From a bacterium (GTDB taxonomy: Bacteria; Bdellovibrionota_C; UBA2361; RFPC01): DNA of 32,459 nucleotides. A program made the translations under genes and the position numbers. Below are positions 11,132 to 31,720 of this stretch, one piece after another. Every line of letters begins with the position of its first letter. Position 1 is the stretch's first letter. The stretch is taken from the NCBI GenBank assembly GCA_009926305.1, contig RFPC01000024.1, positions 1 through 32,459 of the forward strand. Reading direction: 5' to 3'. The notes under the pieces are model-generated. The model was not told the origin of the DNA and did not search any database. It saw only the letters and a program-made list of their open reading frames with translations.

Positions 11132-11710
11132 ATGAGGCGGTATTGCTCATTGGAAAATATTCCTAAAGAGGCTGGATTTACTCTTGTGGAGGTCGTAGTG
11201 GCGTTAGCCATTATGGGCGTAGTGATTGCAGCATCCACTACTAGCTTCATCACTCATCTCAGAGCAAATTACACAGCTGAGCTCATCTTTGAAGGAGAGC
11301 AAGCCGCTCAAAGCGTCATTGATGATCTCCGATATGAGGAAGTTTCGTCTCTTCCCCTTAATGGCACTGATTCCCCTCGGAATATTACAATGAATGCTCT
11401 CCGTGAGTTCCAAGTCTACGTTACATACTGCCCCGAGGATACGTATTGCTCGTCCGATACAGTGCGCCATCTTCGGGTAAGAGCAGACTATCGAGGCGAG
11501 AGAGTGTACCAGACAGAGACGGTTTTTACGCAGTTAGAGAGAGGGGGTGTGACATCAGATGAGAGTGAGGGAAGTCTCGATGAGTCGAATCTACCGACTC
11601 CGACTCCCGCGCCGACACCATCAGCCTCTACTCCTCCATCAGATTCTTCTTCGAATCAAACTGAAGGGAGAGGGAGGAAAAAGAAGCGGTGTAAGTACTG
11701 GGGATGTTGA
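11132..11710 (+). CDS. type IV minor prepilin, PilV-like, with a Ser/Thr/Pro-rich tail
   Basis: This 192-residue protein has a class III prepilin leader: MRRYCSLENIPKEAG, then cleavage before FTLVEVVVALAIMGVVIAA, with Glu at mature position 5. The N-terminal helix is followed by a small globular domain with Cys pairs (TYCPEDTYCSS). From about residue 145 the sequence becomes a Ser/Thr/Pro-rich linker (SNLPTPTPAPTPSAS...), then ends with a basic, Cys-containing tail (GRKKKRCKYWGC). Such a tail is unusual for a minor pilin and could be an O-glycosylation site or a surface anchor. It heads a four-gene operon. The leader indicates processing by a PilD peptidase, which is not in the window. Confidence 0.8.
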   Translation: MRRYCSLENIPKEAGFTLVEVVVALAIMGVVIAASTTSFITHLRANYTAELIFEGEQAAQSVIDDLRYEEVSSLPLNGTDSPRNITMNALREFQVYVTYCPEDTYCSSDTVRHLRVRADYRGERVYQTETVFTQLERGGVTSDESEGSLDESNLPTPTPAPTPSASTPPSDSSSNQTEGRGRKKKRCKYWGC

Positions 11711-11714
11711 GAGG

Positions 11715-12164
11715 ATGAAGAGTCACGACATGCAACAAGGCGGATTCTCTCAATTTGAGCTATTGGCGGTTATTGTACTGATGTCTATTCTTTTAATGTC
11801 GGCTCTTCCTAATTTAAAGGCTCTCGATACTCCTCTCTCTCAGAGTTCGTTTTCTACCTCACATCTCTTACGCCTTGCTCGTGCACGAGCAATATCGACG
11901 ACTTCCCATATTCGAGTCACTCCAGCCTCATCTCGTATTCTGGCGACCTACTCAGCTTCAAGCTGTTCCCCAGACGCCTCTCTTTCTCTTATCGAAGGTC
12001 TCTCAATAGAGTTGGAGGAGGAGGTCATTCTGGAAGCTCAGGATTGGTACATCTGCTTCACCCCCAGAGGATTTTCGGATGCACATATTACCTTCTCTTT
12101 TACGAATGGATTTCAGTCAAGGAGTATTCAAGTTGCTCTCGGGGGAGGAGTAAGAATCGATTAA
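11715..12164 (+). CDS. type IV minor prepilin, FimT/GspH-like
   Basis: This 149-residue protein begins MKSHDMQQGG, followed by FSQFELLAVIVLMSILLMSA. This is a prepilin cleavage site with Glu at mature position 5 and a hydrophobic helix. The body carries LLRLARARAISTTSHIRVT, a FimT/GspH-like region, and ends in a Gly-rich strand (VALGGGVRID). The frame stays open to 11559, but that upstream part reads through the tail of the previous gene and is Arg-rich and unlikely. The ATG at 11715 is 4 bases after the previous stop; an ATG at 11730 is the alternative. It belongs to the minor prepilin operon. Confidence 0.72.
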   Translation: MKSHDMQQGGFSQFELLAVIVLMSILLMSALPNLKALDTPLSQSSFSTSHLLRLARARAISTTSHIRVTPASSRILATYSASSCSPDASLSLIEGLSIELEEEVILEAQDWYICFTPRGFSDAHITFSFTNGFQSRSIQVALGGGVRID

Positions 12165-12185
12165 AGCAAATAGGAGTATTGTTTA

Positions 12186-13088
12186 GTGAGTTACCTCAGA
12201 AAATTGAATCATATCTCCTCTGCTGCTGGATTTACTCTATTGGAGGCACTCGTAGCAGCTGGGCTTACAACTCTTACCACAGGCTTGATGTATGTTTCAG
12301 TTCTTACCGTAAGAGATGGCTATATCCATGATGTTCACCGTACCAGAATCAATGGGAATCTTCGCTCTGCAATGGATATTTTATCGATGCATATTCGACA
12401 GTCTGGAGAATATTTGCCGGCCTTGTTTCCTGCTGTAGAGGTTATCGATGGAGAGCCCGAATCTGACACACTGATTCTCCGACGAGGGTTGTTATCGGAG
12501 GTTCTAACGCTTTGTGAGGATGCCTCTATGGGAAGCAGCACCTTGACTCTCTCCTCTGGAGATTTAGCTGATTCGGCGTGTTACGTAGGGAATGTTGAGC
12601 CGATGTACAATACGGTTCTCGACCGAGTAAATGATGCTGATAGTGAAGTCTTACGTCTTTTTGTGTTTGATCGCTCGACTTTAGAGTATGAATTTGTCGA
12701 GCTAGAGCAAGGAAGTCTTATTGGAGATGAATATCGTTTTTCTATCAGCCCGCTATCGAATACATATTCAAGAATGAATACCAGTATTTATTTGGTTGAA
12801 GAAATGCGATTTGTTAATTCTTCTGATGATAAGACGCTATCAGTTTCAGCGACTCATTTTTCTGATGAATCGCGACCTTTAGCTTTTCATGTAGATGCAT
12901 TTCGGGTCTCTTTAATGATGCAAGATGGAGAGACTCGATCCGAGTTGAGCGGAAATTCGGGCATACCTTGGAAGAACATCAAGAGAATCATGATAACGTT
13001 GAGTGGAGGTGATGCATTTAAAGACAGAGAGTTCTCATCCTCAATATCAGGTGAGTTCTTTCCAAGAAATGTTCTGTCTTATGAATGA
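12186..13088 (+). CDS. type IV minor prepilin, PilW-like
   Basis: This 300-residue protein has the prepilin signal AAG, then FTLLEALVAAGLTTLTTGLMYVS, with Glu at mature position 5. RSAMDILSMHIRQSGEYLP after the N-terminal helix matches the PilW/GspJ pattern, in which a pseudopilin helix is followed by an 'M...lr..iRqAG' segment. The start is a GTG at 12186 with AGGAG about 9 bases upstream. The remaining 200 residues are a beta-rich domain without named motifs. Its 3' end overlaps the next gene by 8 bases if that gene starts at 13081. Position and order (V, T, W, X) match minor pilin operons that prime pilus assembly. Confidence 0.78.
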   Translation: MSYLRKLNHISSAAGFTLLEALVAAGLTTLTTGLMYVSVLTVRDGYIHDVHRTRINGNLRSAMDILSMHIRQSGEYLPALFPAVEVIDGEPESDTLILRRGLLSEVLTLCEDASMGSSTLTLSSGDLADSACYVGNVEPMYNTVLDRVNDADSEVLRLFVFDRSTLEYEFVELEQGSLIGDEYRFSISPLSNTYSRMNTSIYLVEEMRFVNSSDDKTLSVSATHFSDESRPLAFHVDAFRVSLMMQDGETRSELSGNSGIPWKNIKRIMITLSGGDAFKDREFSSSISGEFFPRNVLSYE

Positions 13089-15003
13089 GAGGAGAGTTCG
13101 ATCCATAGGGCAGAGCTCTGATGCGGGCTATGCGCTTATAGCAACAATGATGCTCCTGGCATTACTTGCTTCTCTATACACAGCATACTTTACCGTCACG
13201 CATACGGAACTGGCTCTCGTAAAAGCCTCGAAAGACAGTCAGAGTGGGTTTAATGCAGCTGAAGCCGGGCTTAATCTCAGAGGGGAAGAAATTCGCAGTA
13301 TTTTTGAGGACTATGGCAAACCCGACGGAGTTTCACCCGATGGTATTATTGGATGTGATGCGGGGCAGCTCGGCGAGGGAGACTATCGATGTCAGACATA
13401 TAGTTTTTCAAACGGTCAAAATGCAGTCACTTATGTCAGTGAAGATCAACAAAATCCATACTCTATCGTTATTCCTCAAGGAGAGGCATTTCAAGGATTG
13501 AATGCACTTGAATACCGGTATACGGCAACGTCTGTGGGAAGAAACCTTACAGGAAGTAATGAAGCTATTCTTGAGCTGACATTCCTTAGTCGGCTCGTTC
13601 CTCTGTTTCAATTCGCAATATTCTTTGAGGAGGATCTTGAGTTCTTTAACGGAGCATCAATGACCGTCGATGGGCATGTGCATACAAATGGAGATATGTA
13701 TATTGGCACCCAGAGTGGCGGAACAACGAATTATACTGGGCAGGTAACGGTGGTAAGTAATCTCTATCGCGGACAAAAGTCCCAAGCATCATGCTCAGGA
13801 TATCAAGGTACGGCTCGTATTTCAGATGTCGCAAGTAATACGAATCCTAACTTCATCACCCTTCCTTCTTGTTCTGCTAGTCGATTCGAGATCAATGATG
13901 TTTCAAATTGGAATGAAAATGTGATGCTGGGAGTCGAGCCAGTTGATGTTCCGAGGCCTGAGGATATGGACTCTTTCTCGGATGGAGACTACTGGCAAAG
14001 AGCTGATATCCGATTAGTGCTTCGCCTAGATGGGGATGGAGCTCCAGTTTTGGATAATAGTCCGACTGGTATAGAGGTAGTAGGCACAGACGGTCTTATC
14101 GACACGGCAGCAACCGCAGCGTTGCACGATATGAGCTGCTCTGGGCAGATTGATGAAGGGGGGGTGAATTATTCAGTAGGCAACAGAGGACCATCTGATC
14201 CACAAAAGCTTCGACTATTTCGAGAGTATCAATCGAACTCAATATTGAATGGTTATGAAGTAACGCTCGAGGTTGATTTACAGAATCTACTCAACTGTAT
14301 GTATCAGCACCCTGAAATTTTAGCAGGTAAGACACTTGATGATGATACGGAGGACGGCTTAGTGTTTTATTTTGCTCTCGATGGTCCTGAGTCTGGTGCA
14401 TCACACAATAACTATGGTGTGCGTATTCGTAATGGAGCAGAGCTGCAATCATCTCTCTCAGGGGCTCCTCTGGTGAAGGGGCTGACGGTGGTCTCTGATC
14501 AAAAGATTATTGTATGGGGGGATTATAATAGTATCGGATGGGTACCAGCTGCTCTTATGGGGGATACACTTTGGCTTCTTTCTAATGACTGGAACGACTC
14601 TGATTCAGAGCAATTAAGTGTCTATCAAAGAGATGGAAACGCCACTCAGGTATATGCAGCGGTCATTTCAGGCATGCGAAGAACAGGGAATGCGAACGGA
14701 GAAGCCGGGCAGAATTTTGGAGCAAATTCTAATGGGGGAGGGGTAATTAATATCTTTCGCTTTAATGAGTGGTTTCGCGAAGGGACGTCCATTCCAGACT
14801 TTACCTATGTCGGTTCCTTGGTGAGCCTCGGTCCTCCTCGCCATTCAACGTCTACCTGGGGACCATTCACGTATTATAGCGCTCCAAATAGAAACTGGTC
14901 TTACGAAGTTCGTTTTAATGATCCAGATTTACTGCCTCCGATGACTCCAACATTCGTATATTTACGACAGGAGCTCTTTGTCCGTGATTATGAGCTGTAC
15001 TGA
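13081..15003 (+). CDS. giant PilX-like pseudopilin with a large C-terminal domain
   Basis: This protein is about 640 residues. The N-terminus has the PilX pattern: DAGYALIATMMLLALLASLY, without Glu at mature position 5, then a segment ending SGFNAAEAGLNL. PilX proteins are usually 150-250 residues. Here about 450 extra residues follow, with FFEEDLEFFNGASMTVDGHV and HTNGDMYIG, a motif block I associate with large PilX-N-terminal proteins carrying a repetitive beta domain. The operon has no separate PilY1, so this protein may serve as the tip or adhesin component; that is inference. The start is uncertain: ATG 13081 (8-base overlap with the previous gene), ATG 13069 or earlier. Its end overlaps the convergent gene by 16 bases. 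Confidence 0.72.
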   Translation: MNERRVRSIGQSSDAGYALIATMMLLALLASLYTAYFTVTHTELALVKASKDSQSGFNAAEAGLNLRGEEIRSIFEDYGKPDGVSPDGIIGCDAGQLGEGDYRCQTYSFSNGQNAVTYVSEDQQNPYSIVIPQGEAFQGLNALEYRYTATSVGRNLTGSNEAILELTFLSRLVPLFQFAIFFEEDLEFFNGASMTVDGHVHTNGDMYIGTQSGGTTNYTGQVTVVSNLYRGQKSQASCSGYQGTARISDVASNTNPNFITLPSCSASRFEINDVSNWNENVMLGVEPVDVPRPEDMDSFSDGDYWQRADIRLVLRLDGDGAPVLDNSPTGIEVVGTDGLIDTAATAALHDMSCSGQIDEGGVNYSVGNRGPSDPQKLRLFREYQSNSILNGYEVTLEVDLQNLLNCMYQHPEILAGKTLDDDTEDGLVFYFALDGPESGASHNNYGVRIRNGAELQSSLSGAPLVKGLTVVSDQKIIVWGDYNSIGWVPAALMGDTLWLLSNDWNDSDSEQLSVYQRDGNATQVYAAVISGMRRTGNANGEAGQNFGANSNGGGVINIFRFNEWFREGTSIPDFTYVGSLVSLGPPRHSTSTWGPFTYYSAPNRNWSYEVRFNDPDLLPPMTPTFVYLRQELFVRDYELY

Positions 15004-21848: not shown

Positions 21849-23279
21849 TTATCCAGAGCCGCCACCTAGCCCAGCAAGAGCCGAGGTAAGAGCGGCCTGT
21901 TGAGACTGCATCCGCGAGATGTTTGCTTCAAGTCGAGCAAATCGCAGACGAATTTGAGTTGCCTCTTTTTCGATAAATTCTTCTGCCCTTGCTATCTGGT
22001 CATTTAAATTCTCGATACGCGTAGTATTTGCACTCTCAATCGTATCGATAAGGCCGTTGAAACGAGTGTACTGTTCGATAAGTCCACCTGATACAGCGGT
22101 CTCATCCGCAAACTTTTTGAGAATTTCGTTCACTGAATCTGGTTCATTAGAGAGAGCTTCTTGGAAATCATCAGCATCGAAAGCAAGGGTCCCGTCTCGA
22201 TTCGTAGTAATGCCAAGATCTGCAAAAATGCGAACCGCATTGGTTGTCATATCATAAGCCGAAGCGGTAATCTTCCCTCGAAGAGCGGTAAGCGCACCAT
22301 CGTCTACTCGTGTGCTTGCAAGCGGCCCAAAAATATTGTCAATATCTCGTCCATTATCGCTTCTCGTAATCTCGTTGTTCTCAGCAATAAACTCTACGAC
22401 TTCATTAAACTTCTCGATTAACGTTCTTACGGCACTTTCTGTTCCAGAGGAATCGTTTTTCACTTGTATAGTAACATTAGTGGTAATGTTTGCATCTTCA
22501 AGCGAGATCGTTACTCCCTGAATAACGTCATTGATTGTGTTGGAGCCCCGCTCGATTTGTCCTACTCCTTGAAGAGTAAAGATTGCATTTTGAGCAGGTA
22601 TATCAACGGCATTAGCCGCAACGGAATCGAGATAGGTATCAAGATTTGGCGATGATGTGACGTTTGTGGTTGTGTCGATAGTAATCAGTCCATTCTGTTC
22701 ACCGACATTATTGCTCGTAATGACAAGTCGATAGTCAGCGGTTTGTCCTGGCGCAGCCACATTGACTAATTGTGCAGTCCCAGCATCTGTGGTCGTATTG
22801 AATTCGTTTACGAGATCATTAAAGGTGGTTGTTTCATCTACAGAAATAGAGAAGCTTTCAGTGCCGATAGTTACATCAAGTTGCCCCTCTTCGCCTGCAC
22901 CCATGATGGCAGCTGATGGATCTGAGATGCTTTCAGTGAAGGTATAGGTGTGGTTTGTCGCAAGTTGATCAATGGCAGTAATGGTATACGTACCACCAGT
23001 TGCTGCATTACTTGCAACAGCGGTAACTGCCGTCTCGTCAGAGCTTGAGACTGTCTTAGATACGCCGCCACCATTCAGAGACGTAAAGTCCAAGAGTTGA
23101 GTCTTAAACTCATTGAGCAGGGTCGTTAACTCTTGGAGGGCGGTATTTGTTCCCTCGAGTTCGGTAACTTCTTTCTCTTTGGGTTCGACTCTGGTAGCTC
23201 GACGAGCATCCACAGTCGCTTCAATAAGCGCTTCGGAGTCAATTCCCGATGCAAGACCCGAGAAGTTTATCAGTGGCAT
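21849..23279 (-). CDS. fliD: flagellar hook-associated protein 2 (filament cap)
   Basis: This 476-residue protein forms the cap at the tip of the growing filament and helps flagellin fold into place. The N-terminus INFSGLASGIDSEALIEA is the FliD_N signature. A variable central region rich in Thr/Ser/Asn follows (SSDETAVTAVASNAA...). The C-terminal coiled-coil part contains QIARAEEFIEKEATQIRLRF and ends SQQAALTSALAGLGGG, as in FliD_C. The frame is open back to 23336. The ATG at 23279 is preferred because GGGAG precedes it and FliD proteins start near this residue. FlgK, FlgL and FliS are not in the window. Confidence 0.92.
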   Translation of the reverse strand: MPLINFSGLASGIDSEALIEATVDARRATRVEPKEKEVTELEGTNTALQELTTLLNEFKTQLLDFTSLNGGGVSKTVSSSDETAVTAVASNAATGGTYTITAIDQLATNHTYTFTESISDPSAAIMGAGEEGQLDVTIGTESFSISVDETTTFNDLVNEFNTTTDAGTAQLVNVAAPGQTADYRLVITSNNVGEQNGLITIDTTTNVTSSPNLDTYLDSVAANAVDIPAQNAIFTLQGVGQIERGSNTINDVIQGVTISLEDANITTNVTIQVKNDSSGTESAVRTLIEKFNEVVEFIAENNEITRSDNGRDIDNIFGPLASTRVDDGALTALRGKITASAYDMTTNAVRIFADLGITTNRDGTLAFDADDFQEALSNEPDSVNEILKKFADETAVSGGLIEQYTRFNGLIDTIESANTTRIENLNDQIARAEEFIEKEATQIRLRFARLEANISRMQSQQAALTSALAGLGGGSG

Positions 23280-23417
23280 TCCGCGGTGCTCCCGTAAGTA
23301 AGATCTCTGAGGATGAGTGAGCAAGATATACGCCAATAGTAAGTAATTGAAACTTATAGCTCTTTGTGAGAGAAAAGAGGCAGCTTTGTTCGTTTTTGAG
23401 CGCGGAGTAGGAAAATT

Positions 23418-24797
23418 ATGACCGTTACGGTGACGTTTCTAGGAGCAGCAGGGACCGTTACAGGCTCCAAGTATCTTGTTCAGGGTAAGAGGGCGAAGAT
23501 TCTTGTCGATGCGGGACTTTTTCAAGGAAGTCGAAAATGGAGGGAGAAGAATTGGGATACTCCACCGTGTGACCTCTCCGATATCGATGCGGTCCTTTTG
23601 ACCCACGCGCACATTGATCACATTGGTATTCTGCCGAGATTTTCCCATCTTGGGCTTCACTGTCCGGTCTTTTCAACGCGGGCTACCCGCGACCTCGCCC
23701 GTATTCTGCTGCCTGACAGCGCTCGTTTACAAGAGGAAGAGGCTGAATGGAGGAATAAAAAAGGAAAAAGCCGCCATCATCCAGCATTGCCACTGTACAC
23801 GGTTACTGATTCTGAAAAAGTGCTCCGCTCGTTTAAGTCGGTTCCTGTTGATAAGCAGGTTGATATTGCACCAGGGGTTAAGGCTGAGTGGAAAAGAATG
23901 GGGCATATCCTTGGGGCTTGCTCAATAACACTGGAGATCGATGGAAAGAAAATTACTTTCTCTGGTGACGTCGGGCGTTACACTATTCCAATCTTGAAAG
24001 ATCCGGAGCCCGTCGAATTTGGGGACTTACTCCTTATTGAGTCAACCTATGGGAATAGACTTCATGATCATTCGCAGCCTCAACAAGCCATAGAACGTGT
24101 TGTAAATGAAACGGTGAAACGAGATGGCGTAGTGGTCATTCCCTCTTTCGCAGTGGGTCGTGCCCAATTACTCCTTTACTATATCCGTGAATTAAAAGAT
24201 CAGGGAAAAATTCCAGATATTCCTATCATCATTGATAGTCCCATGGCACAAAGTGCAACCGAGGTCTATCGCCAGAATATTCATGACTACGATGAGGAAG
24301 CACTTGAATTAAAAAGGGAAGGGAGTGATCCATTTGCCCCGTCAAAGCTTTACTTCACCAAGAGCCAAGAGGAGTCAAAGCAGCTGAATCGTATTGTAGA
24401 ACCCATGGTAATTATTTCTGCCTCGGGAATGCTCTCAGGTGGAAGGATTCTCCATCATTTGAAGCATCGAATCTCTTCCCCAAATAATACCATTCTGTTT
24501 GTTGGCTATCAGCCTCCTGGTGGACGAGGTGATTGGATTCTAAGAGGGGAGAGCACACTTCGCATTTTTGGCGACGAGGTTGATATACGGGCCGAGATAG
24601 AGTCAATCAGTGGGTTAAGCGCTCACGCGGACAGAGACGAGCTTCTAAGGTGGTGTGAAGCGGGTAAGGGATTGCCTGGAAAAGTGGCTGTGGTTCACGG
24701 AGAACCGGACTCGGCTCATGACTTTGCTCAAACCTTGAAAAATACCTATAAGTGGCAGGCCGAGGTGCCCGAATACCTTCAAGCACTCGAAATCTAG
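23418..24797 (+). CDS. MBL-fold beta-CASP ribonuclease (RNA-processing CPSF-like)
   Basis: This 459-residue protein has the metallo-beta-lactamase core: VTFLGAAGTVTGSKYLV, then LTHAHIDHIGILPRF with THAHIDH at 62-68 and later SGDVGR. The beta-CASP cap follows: ESTYGNR, PSFAVGRAQLLLYYI, then IISASGMLSGGRILHHL, and SGLSAHADRDELLRW near residue 400. These proteins are metal-dependent RNA endo- or exonucleases related to RNase J and CPSF-73. No KH or dsRNA domain is seen, as in the short bacterial form. It lies between fliD and flagellin but on the opposite strand, so it is not in a flagellar operon. The ATG at 23418 follows TAGGAAAATT. Confidence 0.87.
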   Translation: MTVTVTFLGAAGTVTGSKYLVQGKRAKILVDAGLFQGSRKWREKNWDTPPCDLSDIDAVLLTHAHIDHIGILPRFSHLGLHCPVFSTRATRDLARILLPDSARLQEEEAEWRNKKGKSRHHPALPLYTVTDSEKVLRSFKSVPVDKQVDIAPGVKAEWKRMGHILGACSITLEIDGKKITFSGDVGRYTIPILKDPEPVEFGDLLLIESTYGNRLHDHSQPQQAIERVVNETVKRDGVVVIPSFAVGRAQLLLYYIRELKDQGKIPDIPIIIDSPMAQSATEVYRQNIHDYDEEALELKREGSDPFAPSKLYFTKSQEESKQLNRIVEPMVIISASGMLSGGRILHHLKHRISSPNNTILFVGYQPPGGRGDWILRGESTLRIFGDEVDIRAEIESISGLSAHADRDELLRWCEAGKGLPGKVAVVHGEPDSAHDFAQTLKNTYKWQAEVPEYLQALEI

Positions 24798-24826
24798 TTT
24801 TTGTACACCGAGTGTAGTCTTTCCTG

Positions 24827-25684
24827 TTACTGAAGTAGTGACAGGGCAACCGCCGGTTGTTGATTTGCTTGCGCTAGTATTGCGGCGGCAGATTGCTGTA
24901 AGACTTGTTGCCGAACGAGCTCTGCCACTTCTGAAGCAATGTCAGCGTCTCGAATACGTGAATCAGCAGCTACATAATTTTCTCGCGCGACTTCAAGGTA
25001 CGATATCGCAGCGGACAGCCTGCCCTCTGCGGCGCCGATCTGGCCACGGTTTGTTGCTAGCGTAGAAATTGCGGTGTTAATTGCATCAAGAGCTGCCGCT
25101 GCAGCAGTTTGAGCAAACGCATCGCTCGCGCCGTTAATTGAGTAGCTAAGGGCTCCTCCAGGTGTTCCAACCCCCAGTGCATCGAGAGTAGCTAAAACGC
25201 CGTCAATCTGAACCACAGATGCCCCTGTATTATCAAATCCGACTTGAATACTAATAGAACTACTATCCGAGAGAAGTGTCATATCATTGAATGCTGTCGT
25301 ACTGGCTATTCGCTCTATCTCAGACCCAAGAGCAACAAACTCTGATGCTAATGCTGAGCGTTGAGTTGTGGTATAGGTTCCGTTTGCACTCTGTTCGGCG
25401 AGTTCAGCCATTCGTCCGAGAATACTTGAAATTTCTCCCATGGCAGCATCTGCAATCGAAACAACTGATATTCCATCATTGGCGTTACGAACTGCAACTG
25501 CAGCTAACATTGCATCTGCTCTCAGGCCCTCCGCCATCGCTAATCCTGCTGGATCATCCGATGCTTTATTTATGCGAAGACCAGATGATAACTTTTCAAA
25601 GCTATTAGAGAGTTCGCGTGTGCTTTTCGTAAGGCTTGTTATTGAGCGTAGTGCTGATAGATTATTTCCGAGGCTTATCGTCAT
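24827..25684 (-). CDS. fliC: flagellin
   Basis: This 285-residue protein is the filament subunit. The N-terminal D0/D1 segment reads LGNNLSALRSITSLTKSTRE, then ELSNSFEKLSSGLRINKASD and DDPAGLAMAEGLRAD, all flagellin hallmarks. The C-terminal D1/D0 segment has AAISYLEVARENYVAADSRI, RDADIASEVAELVRQQVL and ANQQPAVALSLLQ. It is short, with only a small central domain, typical of a compact flagellin. GGAGGAG lies 7-8 bases before the ATG. A single copy is seen. A sigma28-like candidate lies upstream. Confidence 0.93.
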   Translation of the reverse strand: MTISLGNNLSALRSITSLTKSTRELSNSFEKLSSGLRINKASDDPAGLAMAEGLRADAMLAAVAVRNANDGISVVSIADAAMGEISSILGRMAELAEQSANGTYTTTQRSALASEFVALGSEIERIASTTAFNDMTLLSDSSSISIQVGFDNTGASVVQIDGVLATLDALGVGTPGGALSYSINGASDAFAQTAAAAALDAINTAISTLATNRGQIGAAEGRLSAAISYLEVARENYVAADSRIRDADIASEVAELVRQQVLQQSAAAILAQANQQPAVALSLLQ

Positions 25685-26991: not shown

Positions 26992-27025
26992 AGAAGCCGA
27001 GAAGAAGATTCAGAAGCCTAGAAGA
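26992..27025 (-). repeat. near-identical 14-bp direct repeat at the dnaB stop
   Basis: agaagccgagaaga (26992-27005) and agaagcctagaaga (27012-27025) differ at one base. The second contains the end of the dnaB frame, whose stop is at 27018-27020. It is similar in placement to the duplication at the end of the CarD-like gene. No function is evident. Such short repeats can arise by chance in purine-rich sequence. Confidence 0.5.
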
Positions 27026-28472
27026 TGTCGTCATCCAAGTTTGAAAGATCGAGCTCTTGGTCGATGAAGTCGGACTCTTCTCGCTCATCGAGGTTCGCAA
27101 AAAGGGTATACTCTGGAAGAAACGCCAGTCGGACAATCCCCGTTGGGCCATTCCGCTGTTTAGAGACGATTATTTCTGCAACGCCCTTATCCTCAGTCTC
27201 TTCATTATAAACCTCATCGCGATAAATAAACATAATAAGGTCAGCATCCTGCTCAATAGCACCTGATTCCCGAAGATCAGACATGATAGGTCGCTTGTCA
27301 GTCCGGTTTTCTAACGAACGATTGAGCTGTGAGAGCGCGAGAACAGGTACATTCAGCTCTTTCGCAAGTGCCTTCAACGAGCGTGAGATATCTGAGATTT
27401 CTTGTTCTCGGCTACTGCTATACGCAGGACTTCTCATCAACTGCAAATAGTCCACAAGAATAAGTCCAAGAGGATTCTCCCTGTGCAGTCTTCGACATTT
27501 TGCACGAAGTTCTGTGACCGTCATTGCAGGAGTATCATCGATAAATATCGGGGCTTCAGCAATTTGGCTTGCTGCTTCGACGAGTTTTGGAAAATCATAT
27601 TCCTGTAAATTCCCTACCCGGACTCGAGCACTATCAACCTTTCCAACTCCGCAGAGCATTCGGGTCACAAGCTGTTCTTTTGACATTTCCAGCGAGAAAA
27701 GGGCTACCGGCTTTTTTGTCGTTACACCGACAAATTGTGAGATACTCAATGCTAATGCCGTTTTCCCCATCGATGGACGTGCAGCGATAATGATTAAGTC
27801 AGAGGGTTGAAAGCCTGCTGTCAGTTGATCCAGCTTCGTGAACCCAGCAGGAGTTCCTGTGATCGGCTCTTTTCGTTGATAGAGGTCTTCAATCAGTTTA
27901 ACCGAGGTTTGAACAATATCTCCAACACGGTGAAAAGCAGGCTTTGCCCTAAAGTCAGAGACCCCGAGTATGCGCTGTTCAGCCATATCAAGAAAGCTTT
28001 CGATATTCTCTGAGAGATCGAATGCTTCTCGAGAAATCTCAGCCGATTCGTGGATGAGTTTTCTCCGGATAGACATTTCTTTGAGCATCTTTGCATAGTA
28101 CGCGACGTGGGCTGAGCTTGGCACTACGGCAGCAAGTCGAGAGAGTTCTTCAAGCCCTCCGACGTTATCAAGCTCGCTCCTCGCACGAAGTTGTTGGCCA
28201 AGCGTTACGATATCAATTGGCTGCCCCTTGTCATGAAGCGTGCGCATACACTCGAATAAGACTTGATAACGCGGCTGATAGAAGTCTTCACTCGTTACCT
28301 TTTCGAGCACCATATCAATGGCGTCATTATCAAGAAGGACTGCACCAAGTACTGATTCTTCAGCCTCCAGAGTATTGGGAGGAATACGAGAGTGGGATTG
28401 CAGAGCAGAGGAGTTTTGTTCTCCCCGTTTTTTATTGGCGTTTCGAGTAAATGCGTTTGAGCTTTGCGTCAT
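27018..28472 (-). CDS. dnaB: replicative DNA helicase DnaB
   Basis: This 484-residue hexameric helicase unwinds DNA ahead of the replisome and loads primase. The N-terminal domain reads EAEESVLGAVLLDNDAIDMV. The RecA-like domain has Walker A ARPSMGKTALAL with Lys237, then VALFSLEMSKEQLVTRML, the Walker B region LILVDYLQLM, and LKALAKELNVPVLALSQLNR and DLRESGAIEQDADLIMF. The length is normal. No intein is present. The first 30 residues are polar and disordered. rplI, a common neighbour, is absent. The ATG at 28472 follows TAGGTT. The NYN-domain gene lies 88 bases upstream on the same strand. Confidence 0.97.
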   Translation of the reverse strand: MTQSSNAFTRNANKKRGEQNSSALQSHSRIPPNTLEAEESVLGAVLLDNDAIDMVLEKVTSEDFYQPRYQVLFECMRTLHDKGQPIDIVTLGQQLRARSELDNVGGLEELSRLAAVVPSSAHVAYYAKMLKEMSIRRKLIHESAEISREAFDLSENIESFLDMAEQRILGVSDFRAKPAFHRVGDIVQTSVKLIEDLYQRKEPITGTPAGFTKLDQLTAGFQPSDLIIIAARPSMGKTALALSISQFVGVTTKKPVALFSLEMSKEQLVTRMLCGVGKVDSARVRVGNLQEYDFPKLVEAASQIAEAPIFIDDTPAMTVTELRAKCRRLHRENPLGLILVDYLQLMRSPAYSSSREQEISDISRSLKALAKELNVPVLALSQLNRSLENRTDKRPIMSDLRESGAIEQDADLIMFIYRDEVYNEETEDKGVAEIIVSKQRNGPTGIVRLAFLPEYTLFANLDEREESDFIDQELDLSNLDDDIF

Positions 28473-28560: not shown

Positions 28561-29289
28561 TTAGTCTTCTCGCCAAATAGTTTCCGAATCTGAAAGGTCA
28601 ATCCATTTCGCAGCGCTCTTGAGGAGCTCTCTGCCTGAAGCCTGACCAAAATCTGCACTAACTGTCTGAATATTCGCACTTCTCAGGAAGAGGAAGGGAT
28701 AGCTTAAATCTCTGCCTGGACAAACTACGGTGACAATTCGCTCCTCCTGTTGGCCCTCTGGTGCATCTTGAGGGCTACTGATGAGTCTCGGTTTTGGTTC
28801 TGCCTCTGGTATCCTTCTTTCCTGCTTTCTGAACGGCATTTTTGTGCGGTTGCCTTCTCGGTTTGAAAACTCTTGTTGAGCCTCATCGTCTGAGCCTAGG
28901 TCGTATCCGAGGTTTTCAAATGTATTCTTCCCTAATCCGAATGCAATAATGTCTGAGGCCATCTCAGTTTCAATAGACACTTGTCTCGTAATGCCCTTCG
29001 GGGGGAGACGCTTTACAATGACTTGAAGTCCTGCATTACGTACGGCATCCAAGAATGCCCGCTGTCTTGAGTCATCTTCATGCGGAATCAGGGTATAGTA
29101 CCGGGCCACAGCAGGTGTAGCACCAGCAGCTACGCCCTTTACAAGCTTAGGCATATCGACTCGCTTCTGCATTCTTCTTGTTGCACGGTCTAAACCAGTC
29201 CCGTCAATAAATACCCCGACAATCCGACGGCTCTTCCTCTTTACGACGCCTTTTTTAACTTTCTCGAAAGGTTGTTGTGTCATATTCAT
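28561..29289 (-). CDS. NYN-domain (PIN-like) protein
   Basis: This 242-residue protein has the NYN/LabA-type nuclease fold. VGVFIDGTGLDRATRRM (25-41) has Asp29 in the usual catalytic place, although the common DGxN is replaced by DGTG. KRLPPKGITRQVSIETEMAS, then DIIAFGLG, gives the second acidic strand, and VTVVCPGRDLSYPFLFLRSA the third with Asp. A polar segment of about 60 residues (RTKMPFRKQERRIPEAEPKP...) is inserted between the second and third acidic strands and looks disordered. NYN proteins are RNA-processing nucleases or RNA-binding proteins; the substrate is unknown. GGGGATGAAAC precedes the ATG at 29289. It may be co-transcribed with dnaB. Confidence 0.75.
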   Translation of the reverse strand: MNMTQQPFEKVKKGVVKRKSRRIVGVFIDGTGLDRATRRMQKRVDMPKLVKGVAAGATPAVARYYTLIPHEDDSRQRAFLDAVRNAGLQVIVKRLPPKGITRQVSIETEMASDIIAFGLGKNTFENLGYDLGSDDEAQQEFSNREGNRTKMPFRKQERRIPEAEPKPRLISSPQDAPEGQQEERIVTVVCPGRDLSYPFLFLRSANIQTVSADFGQASGRELLKSAAKWIDLSDSETIWRED

Positions 29290-29500: not shown

Positions 29501-30208
29501 CTAACGGACGATGACCGGCATTCCAACTTTCACATGGCGAAGTAGGTCTCGCATTTTTTCAGGAGCGACTCGATATCCATTTACTCGAGTAGACGGATCC
29601 AATGTTTGAGCTTGAGATGGGCCAGAGTGGATAACTTGTCCATTGGAAAGATAGATGGCATGGGAGCCAAGGATTCCTTTCAAAAACCGTCTACTATCTC
29701 CCTCAGGCGGTACAGGTAAACCTCGCGCTAGGAAATACTCTGCAGGGGCGATCCATACAGGATTATCCGAGACCATTACTACCTCGGTCTTTTTCTCAAA
29801 GTGTAACTCTTGGAAGATGTCTTCAAATTGCAGTCGCATCTGAAAGACCGTATGCATACTATTTTTTGCAGTGACCCGTCCCGCAGAGCTGTTAATTTCA
29901 AGCCAGCTTTTTTCAGCCTCCTGTGTTCCTATTGCCTCTGTCTGATGGATAGGGGGAAGGGGTAAAAATCCGTATAGAGGTATCTGATCAATCTCAGTTA
30001 TGGGAGGGAGCTTCTTAGCAATTAAAACAGACCCCGGTGTAATTTTTACTGGTGTGCTGTTTTGCACGTGTTGAACGCCTATGGTGCTAGAGCACCCGGG
30101 AAAACAGACCAGAGTGAGAAGCACTGAAAGTAAAGAGCATTGGAGTTTTGAGCACACTTTTCGAGTAAGTTCGATGACTTCCGTTCTAGCCGCTGGATTA
30201 GAATCCAT
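29501..30208 (-). CDS. lipoprotein with a YkuD (L,D-transpeptidase)-like domain lacking the catalytic Cys
   Basis: Starting at the ATG at 30208 (AAAGAAG upstream) the protein has 235 residues. A basic n-region and LQCSLLSVLLTLVCFPGC give a lipoprotein-like signal with Cys39, though the lipobox is non-standard. The C-terminal half matches the YkuD fold: NPVWIAPAEYFLARGLPVPP, then GILGSHAIYLSNGQVIHSG, where active enzymes have ...YxIHG, then GYRVAPEKMRDLL..VKVGMPV, where they have SHGCxRM..eDv..L...V..GTPV. The catalytic SHGC is replaced by RVNG (208-211), so the Cys is a Gly. It is likely an inactive peptidoglycan-binding relative. The frame stays open to 30475 but that N-terminus is not protein-like. 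It is divergent from the lytic transglycosylase gene. Confidence 0.6.
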   Translation of the reverse strand: MDSNPAARTEVIELTRKVCSKLQCSLLSVLLTLVCFPGCSSTIGVQHVQNSTPVKITPGSVLIAKKLPPITEIDQIPLYGFLPLPPIHQTEAIGTQEAEKSWLEINSSAGRVTAKNSMHTVFQMRLQFEDIFQELHFEKKTEVVMVSDNPVWIAPAEYFLARGLPVPPEGDSRRFLKGILGSHAIYLSNGQVIHSGPSQAQTLDPSTRVNGYRVAPEKMRDLLRHVKVGMPVIVR

Positions 30209-30422
30209 TAGGCTTCTTTCAGAGTAGGCGATCTGAGTCTTGTCTGTTATTCTCTGTCCATATTCTGATCGCTGTCGAGGTCCTGCTGGCTGAGGGCGGG
30301 CGCCAGTAGGGTGGTTCAGAGCAGTATGACTGAGAAAAGCGAAGCGCCGCATAGCTGTTAGCCTTTTTAATAACCAGCAGTAAACCGTAATTATGCCCAT
30401 TTTTTTTGAACCCGTGTTTAAG

Positions 30423-31235
30423 ATGCTGCTAGCGCGCCTAAGACAACAACAATTTTTTTCACCAATAAAATTCAATAGGTTAACTTTGAAGTTTCATATG
30501 GTGATCGTCATACTGTGCCTGACTGGGTGCTCATTTATAGAACAAAACTGGTTGATTTTCCACGATCCGTCGCCTCGAGAGGAGACGGTGTCTCCTTTCG
30601 TTCGTGCCAGCGCCTCCAAGAGCGCCTTTTCCTATGAGATGGGCGAAAATAATAGCTTTTTATTGCCGCGCTTTGACCGAGTGCGTCCCGTGGAGGTTCT
30701 TCAGGAGTATGAACGGTTGCAGGGGAGGCATGGACGTGATTTAGAGAACGCCTTGAAGAGAGCAATTCCTTATTTTGATAGTTTCGGCAGAATTTTAGAG
30801 AAGCACCTCATACCAACCGATATGCTCATTATCCCATTTGTTGAGAGCCACTTTCGTTCTCAAGCAGTTAGTCAAAAAGGTGCGGCAGGATTATGGCAGT
30901 TTACCCGAGCTACCGGTCGACACTACGGTTTACGTGTAAATTTGTTTGGAGATGAGAGGAAAGATCCCGACCGTTCAACGGATGCTGCTGCTCAATATCT
31001 TTACGACCTCTACTTGCAGTTTGGAGATTGGCCACTAGCACTTGCGGCATACAACTGTGGTGCTGCTCGCGTCAGGAGAGCTTGCAAAGGAGAACTGGTG
31101 TGTGATTATTGGAAATTGATTCGCAAGAAAGCGCTTCCACCGCAGACCAGGAAGTATGTGCCTCGTTTACTTGCATCTCTCCTGTATTTGGAGGATCGTG
31201 AGCTCTGGCCGTTTACTAAGGCGCGAGGACGTTGA
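30423..31235 (+). CDS. lytic transglycosylase, SLT type (MltD-like lipoprotein)
   Basis: This protein of about 270 residues cleaves peptidoglycan glycan strands. The SLT domain reads LIIPFVESHFRSQAVSQKGA (catalytic Glu in the ES pair), then AAGLWQFTRATGRHYGL, DPDRSTDAAAQYLYDL and WPLALAAYNCGAARVRRA. HMVIVILCLTGCS gives a lipobox with Cys after LTG, so outer-membrane anchoring is expected. No LysM repeats follow, unlike full-length MltD. The start is uncertain: ATG 30393, ATG 30423, TTG 30486 or ATG 30498 all keep the lipobox; GAAG precedes 30498. The stop overlaps the ispF start by one base (TGATG). Confidence 0.85.
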   Translation: MLLARLRQQQFFSPIKFNRLTLKFHMVIVILCLTGCSFIEQNWLIFHDPSPREETVSPFVRASASKSAFSYEMGENNSFLLPRFDRVRPVEVLQEYERLQGRHGRDLENALKRAIPYFDSFGRILEKHLIPTDMLIIPFVESHFRSQAVSQKGAAGLWQFTRATGRHYGLRVNLFGDERKDPDRSTDAAAQYLYDLYLQFGDWPLALAAYNCGAARVRRACKGELVCDYWKLIRKKALPPQTRKYVPRLLASLLYLEDRELWPFTKARGR

Positions 31236-31720
31236 TGGAAATTCGCATTGGTCAGGGAGTTGATGTGCATGCTTTTGAAGCAGGTGGACGTCTTATTCTT
31301 GGCGGCATTGATGTTCCGCATCATTCAGGGCTGAAAGCGCACTCTGATGGCGATGCTCTTCTTCATGCGATCACTGATGCAATTTGTGGAGCGATGGGAA
31401 GGGGAGATATCGGCGAATTTTTCCCGGATACGGACTCACGATGGAAGGGAGCAGATAGTGCACAACTTCTCTCACGCGTCGTGGAGGTAATGAAGAAAGA
31501 ACAATGGAAAATTCTTAATATAGATTCCACAGTGGTCACGGAGCAGCCGAAAATCGGGCCTTATCGGCAACAAATAAAAGAGCGCATCGCGCAGATCCTA
31601 GAGCTTCCAGCTGATGCTGTTGGTGTTAAGGCAACAACCTGCGAACAGATGGGATTCCTTGGGCGAGGTGAAGGGCTAATGGCCACAGCGGTGGTTCTCA
31701 TAAGTCGCTTTTCTTCTTGA
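31235..31720 (+). CDS. ispF: 2-C-methyl-D-erythritol 2,4-cyclodiphosphate synthase
   Basis: This 161-residue enzyme of the MEP isoprenoid pathway closes CDP-methylerythritol-2-phosphate into the cyclic diphosphate and releases CMP. The zinc ligands are Asp10 and His12 (GVDVHAF) and His44 (SDGDALLHAITDA). GRGDIGEFFPDTDSRWKGAD and KATTCEQMGFLGRGEG are family hallmarks. The length is normal. A TTG lies just upstream at 31232, but the ATG at 31235 is preferred, with GAGG 6 bases before it. ispD, often fused or adjacent, is not in the window. Translation is probably coupled to the lytic transglycosylase gene. Confidence 0.95.
   Translation: MEIRIGQGVDVHAFEAGGRLILGGIDVPHHSGLKAHSDGDALLHAITDAICGAMGRGDIGEFFPDTDSRWKGADSAQLLSRVVEVMKKEQWKILNIDSTVVTEQPKIGPYRQQIKERIAQILELPADAVGVKATTCEQMGFLGRGEGLMATAVVLISRFSS

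Follow-up and report, generated by a model that had tools for sequence, protein, structure and literature searches.

Insight into the control of cell-wall enzymes has come from dead enzyme folds, those of degenerate LytM domains among them. One protein of the latter kind, DipM, binds the lytic transglycosylases SdpA and SdpB and stimulates SdpA (PMC10336132). L,D-transpeptidases (LDTs) are recognized in their active form by the motif HG(S/T)-X10-(S/T)XGC-phi-R(M/L) (PMC12729407), and a catalytically dead variant of one of them, LdtJ C390S, restores fitness and shape (PMC12548408). For Lpg1514, a protein of the YafK/YkuD fold, serine-dependent chemistry has been reported (PMC13400389). No description of a natural YkuD family lacking the catalytic cysteine was found in searches of the open-access literature.

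We analyzed a window of 32,459 nucleotides, i.e., the whole stretch of contig RFPC01000024.1, in which a gene on the reverse strand (29501..30208, stop codon included) encodes a pseudo-L,D-transpeptidase (pseudo-LDT) lipoprotein of 235 amino acids. A previous sequence-only reading had been built on the open reading frame itself, on its GILGSHAIYLSNGQVIHSG stretch, on RVNG (residues 208-211), and on EKM..LL..VKVGMPV near the C-terminus; all of these were borne out by the translation. The protein begins with a predicted lipoprotein signal peptide (residues 1-38; 30095..30208, reverse strand), comprising a hydrophobic stretch and an atypical lipobox, FPGC, and would be exported and lipidated at Cys39 (30092..30094, reverse strand). 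This cysteine is aligned in 29 of 29 mature sequences of the family and, together with the serine at position +2, makes anchoring in the outer membrane plausible. The following linker (residues 40-100; 29909..30091, reverse strand) was modeled with low confidence (pLDDT mostly 48-76) and is probably flexible. It contains the conserved segment PGSVLIAKKLP, which corresponds to the family consensus GSLxISRPxP; the glycine of this motif is invariant and proline is present in at least 90% of the alignment, and the motif may be a partner-binding element. The remainder of the protein (residues 101-235; 29504..29908, reverse strand) constitutes the domain considered below.

The C-terminal half had been read as following the YkuD pattern. 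The window protein alone gave no Pfam match, its sequence being too divergent, and only a chance match when searched by phmmer against PDB sequences; the resemblance was therefore tested through its relatives. As a single query, the protein likewise gave no match in the search for related loci. Most related genomes nevertheless proved to contain the gene. Among its relatives, 13 of 29 matched PF03734 (YkuD) weakly or better, with a best E-value of 8.3e-7, and three reached the curated PF03734 cut-off in the genome search. Comparison of the family with cysteine-containing LDTs of the same phylum by hhalign gave a probability of 97.7% (E 1.8e-12). Structure prediction, in which another fold might have emerged, returned the YkuD fold: for the window protein as for one relative (L030), the AlphaFold2 model had pLDDT values mostly above 90 in the domain, with low confidence in the linker, and the listed Foldseek matches of these two predicted structures against the PDB were almost all LDTs (probability 1.00), including Klebsiella 4lzh, LdtMt1/2, Ldtfm, and Bacillus subtilis YkuD. 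The TM-scores were modest (about 0.48), in part because some 60 linker residues count in the length. By these models, the profile comparison, and the Pfam matches of the relatives, the resemblance exceeds chance, and residues 101-235 are predicted to adopt a YkuD fold.

We aligned 37 family sequences with 33 cysteine-containing LDTs; with L085 included, 38 members could be compared. In this alignment RVNG (29576..29587, reverse strand) lies at the place of (S/T)HGC, with G211 at the position of the catalytic cysteine and V209 at that of the histidine, in line with the substitutions originally proposed. Glycine occupies the cysteine position in 37 of 38 members and leucine in one, with no cysteine there in any of the 38, and the histidine position is filled by isoleucine, valine, or a similar residue across the family. 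The claim that SHGC is replaced thus stands for both residues, with one refinement: the other active-site histidine, His194 of IHSGP (29627..29629, reverse strand), is retained. It is equivalent to the histidine of HG(S/T), present in all active LDTs aligned, and is kept in 36 of 38 members (36 of 37 rows without L085), L019 and L085 having tyrosine. Most orthologues have the motif E-I/V-G-G-L/V-R. In the typical member the retained histidine and the glycine at the cysteine position are 11 residues apart, compared with 16 in the published motif, so the catalytic loop has lost about five residues. RVNG and a longer loop are peculiar to the genus of the window, where an insert of unrelated sequence, TLDPST in the case of the window protein, has restored the loop length. 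The published motif is absent: the window protein has IHSGP, altered spacing, and no SXGC. Residues W152, P167, R174, G181, H194, and R213 are common to the family and its nearest active enzymes, and A154, Y158, and R162 are family-specific, each at 100%.

No cysteine that could take the catalytic place was found in the orthologues; the sole repeated cysteine within the domain, an IHC variant in five members, is not conserved, and the others are isolated. An assembly error behind the missing residue was also ruled out, since the loss is family-wide. Cysteine transpeptidase activity therefore appears, from the aligned residues, close to certainly lost, and the description of the protein as an inactive family member is well supported in the sense that it is not a cysteine transpeptidase.

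With the alignment as query, orthologues were detected in 41 of the 46 genomes from this class, including 19 of 20 genomes at least 90% complete; a search at the level of the phylum returned the same 46 genomes. Cysteine-type YkuD proteins, by comparison, were found in 18 of 46 once the matches of the pseudo-LDT family itself were set aside. Ten columns are invariant in the 29 aligned mature sequences: the lipobox cysteine, one linker glycine, and W, A, Y, R, P, R, L, and G of the domain. The family forms one clade (support 100/100), such that a single loss of the cysteine suffices to explain it, and the matches fetched from outside the phylum were all cysteine enzymes, most of them of the sub-type HGTLYxRLLGRxVTHGC. 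Between close members, dN is 0.065-0.24 and synonymous sites are saturated, indicating purifying selection. Members from family f14 (L161 of genome G031 and L162 of G029) are more degenerate, the G031 protein lacking the retained histidine as well; neither of these genomes has a close orthologue of the transglycosylase described below.

The gene is divergent from a lytic transglycosylase gene, as had been noted. This neighbor (30393..31235, forward strand) encodes a lipoprotein with an SLT domain (Pfam E 3.6e-27) in which Glu151 of VES is kept. Its end is overlapped by ispF (31232..31720, forward strand; Pfam YgbB E 2.3e-64), which is syntenic in many genomes. Downstream of the pseudo-LDT gene lie a gene for a NYN-domain protein (28561..29289, reverse strand; Pfam NYN E 9.2e-6), a lineage-wide neighbor, and, at the outer end of the conserved block, a gene read from its sequence as the replicative helicase DnaB (27018..28472, reverse strand; syntenic in 21 loci). 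The widely conserved block is therefore dnaB, NYN, and pseudo-LDT, followed divergently by the lytic transglycosylase and ispF. Its steadiest part is the divergent pair of pseudo-LDT and transglycosylase, present in 34 of 37 loci, always adjacent when the transglycosylase is present, and maintained at loci where ispF or NYN has relocated; the other links are looser (transglycosylase and ispF, 20/33; NYN within 800 nt, 24/37; NYN and dnaB, 14/28). Cys46 and Glu151 are invariant in the transglycosylase alignment, and the region of the catalytic glutamate is intact in nearly all copies.

Exceptions occur in both directions. The transglycosylase is kept without the pseudo-LDT in three genomes: in G040 and G043 (genus g27) the interval from transglycosylase to NYN is cleanly devoid of the pseudo-LDT gene, and its absence is clean in G038 as well. 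Conversely, G032 has the pseudo-LDT but no transglycosylase, the gene for which has been lost at this locus (L124, 6659-8636) from an otherwise conserved order of ispF, pseudo-LDT, and NYN; the G032 member has the longest branch of the family. The link is thus frequent and old rather than obligate. At G009 the transglycosylase seemed to be absent, but this was a shadow of ORF calling, the gene being found by tblastn. The frequency of the pairing lends weight to the proposal of a shared cell-wall role, notwithstanding the genomes that keep the transglycosylase alone. No confident promoter or terminator signal was detected in the divergent region, where counts were near the shuffled mean. Elsewhere in the window, a gene resembling an MBL-fold RNase lies between genes that read as flagellar cap-like (FliD) and flagellin-like (21849-25684), which suggests a flagellated organism, and several successive genes whose products have prepilin-like N-termini (GFTLVE, GFTLLE; 11132-15003) are probably a minor-pilin cluster of a type IV pilus.

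We tentatively favor the view that these proteins are phylum-wide pseudo-L,D-transpeptidases, probably anchored in the outer membrane, that bind peptidoglycan and serve as regulators or adaptors of the neighboring lytic transglycosylase; we rank this role above a plain tether, and the tether above a cryptic enzyme. Within this proposal, the fold, cysteine loss, single origin, constraint, and gene pairing come from sequence, and we infer that the protein is lipidated, resides in the outer membrane, binds peptidoglycan, and acts on the transglycosylase. The lipid anchor at Cys39 and the flexible tether would probably hold the protein at the inner face of the outer membrane, such that the YkuD domain would lie against the peptidoglycan. 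Lacking a thiol, the domain could form no acyl-enzyme and hence no cross-links. Its retained predicted groove (Trp152, Arg174, His194, Arg213) would most likely bind tetrapeptide stems or dock on a partner, and the bound pseudo-LDT might then mark or regulate sites for the adjacent lipoprotein transglycosylase, as degenerate LytM proteins do with autolysins. We favor a regulator or adaptor because the groove is retained, because the domain has a lipid anchor and a flexible linker, and because of the partner gene, and a non-catalytic role is credible given that dead LdtJ restores fitness and that DipM controls lytic transglycosylases. Against this role, each gene of the pair occurs alone in some genomes; moreover, neighborhood is no proof of contact, as ispF, NYN, and dnaB are also syntenic yet unrelated. 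The modest TM-scores also count against it, and chemistry independent of cysteine is conceivable. The stronger version, in which a dead LDT fold has given rise to a lineage-wide class of regulators, i.e., outer-membrane lipoproteins that read tetrapeptide stems and switch the adjacent transglycosylase on or off, is possible though doubtful.

The next best account, which we consider rather unlikely, is that of a plain tether between outer membrane and peptidoglycan, in which the dead YkuD domain would bind stem peptides with no cross-linking and no specific relation to the transglycosylase. The lipobox and flexible linker would serve such a function, and the separate losses of transglycosylase and pseudo-LDT agree with it. 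In the genome of the window, which nevertheless encodes four transpeptidase domains of the PBP type, no cysteine-type YkuD protein was matched by a YkuD search, which would miss very divergent enzymes; a covalent lipoprotein linkage made by an LDT is consequently unlikely there. However, this genome already encodes eight matches to OmpA-like domains, a usual non-covalent tether, and a tether leaves the persistent divergent pairing without explanation.

It is improbable that the family is a cryptic enzyme using another nucleophile or the retained histidine, e.g., for hydrolysis of stem peptides or reaction with beta-lactams. The near-universal retention of His194 and the serine-dependent chemistry of Lpg1514 speak for such an activity. 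Yet no invariant nucleophile lies beside this histidine, position 195 being serine in only 72% of members and otherwise cysteine, threonine, aspartate, or asparagine; no serine is invariant in the family, the histidine itself is tyrosine in two members, and the loop shaping the oxyanion hole has become shorter. Lastly, a decaying LDT remnant with no current role, to which the lost catalytic residue, the clean absences in g27 and G038, and the long branches in the genus of the window might point, is already contradicted by the presence of the gene in nearly all high-quality genomes, the single clade, the invariant columns, and dN far below dS.

The family combines a known fold with an inactive site conserved across the lineage, and probably with a new role. 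It is more widespread in this lineage than the active enzymes and is coupled to a lytic transglycosylase gene. It offers a ready test of the LDT fold as a peptidoglycan reader, as well as a caution that a YkuD match alone does not justify annotation as a transpeptidase.

Compared with known systems, the family resembles the L,D-transpeptidases (PF03734) in fold, in the order of its elements (PxW, P, R, LG.YA, IH, GxR, vGt.V), and in one active-site histidine, its nearest outside relatives being a sub-type with KPDWAFIEEG and LYxRLLGRxVTHGC. In contrast to these enzymes, it has no catalytic cysteine, (S/T)HGC having become xxGG or RVNG; the catalytic loop is shorter by about five residues in most members, and A154, Y158, and R162 are invariant. 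LdtJ of Acinetobacter baumannii indicates that an LDT protein can have a non-catalytic role, but possesses the cysteine and extra domains, and growth is restored even by LdtJ with its YkuD domain deleted. DpaA/YafK and Lpg1514 are similar in having a YkuD fold and an activity different from L,D-transpeptidation, although both retain the cysteine. A parallel in idea is with the degenerate LytM regulators DipM, EnvC, and NlpD, in which an inactive fold of a peptidoglycan enzyme regulates cell-wall hydrolases; their fold is that of LytM metallopeptidases rather than YkuD, and the interaction proposed for the pseudo-LDT is putative. If such a class of regulators exists, it would be the counterpart of the degenerate LytM factors, built on another fold.
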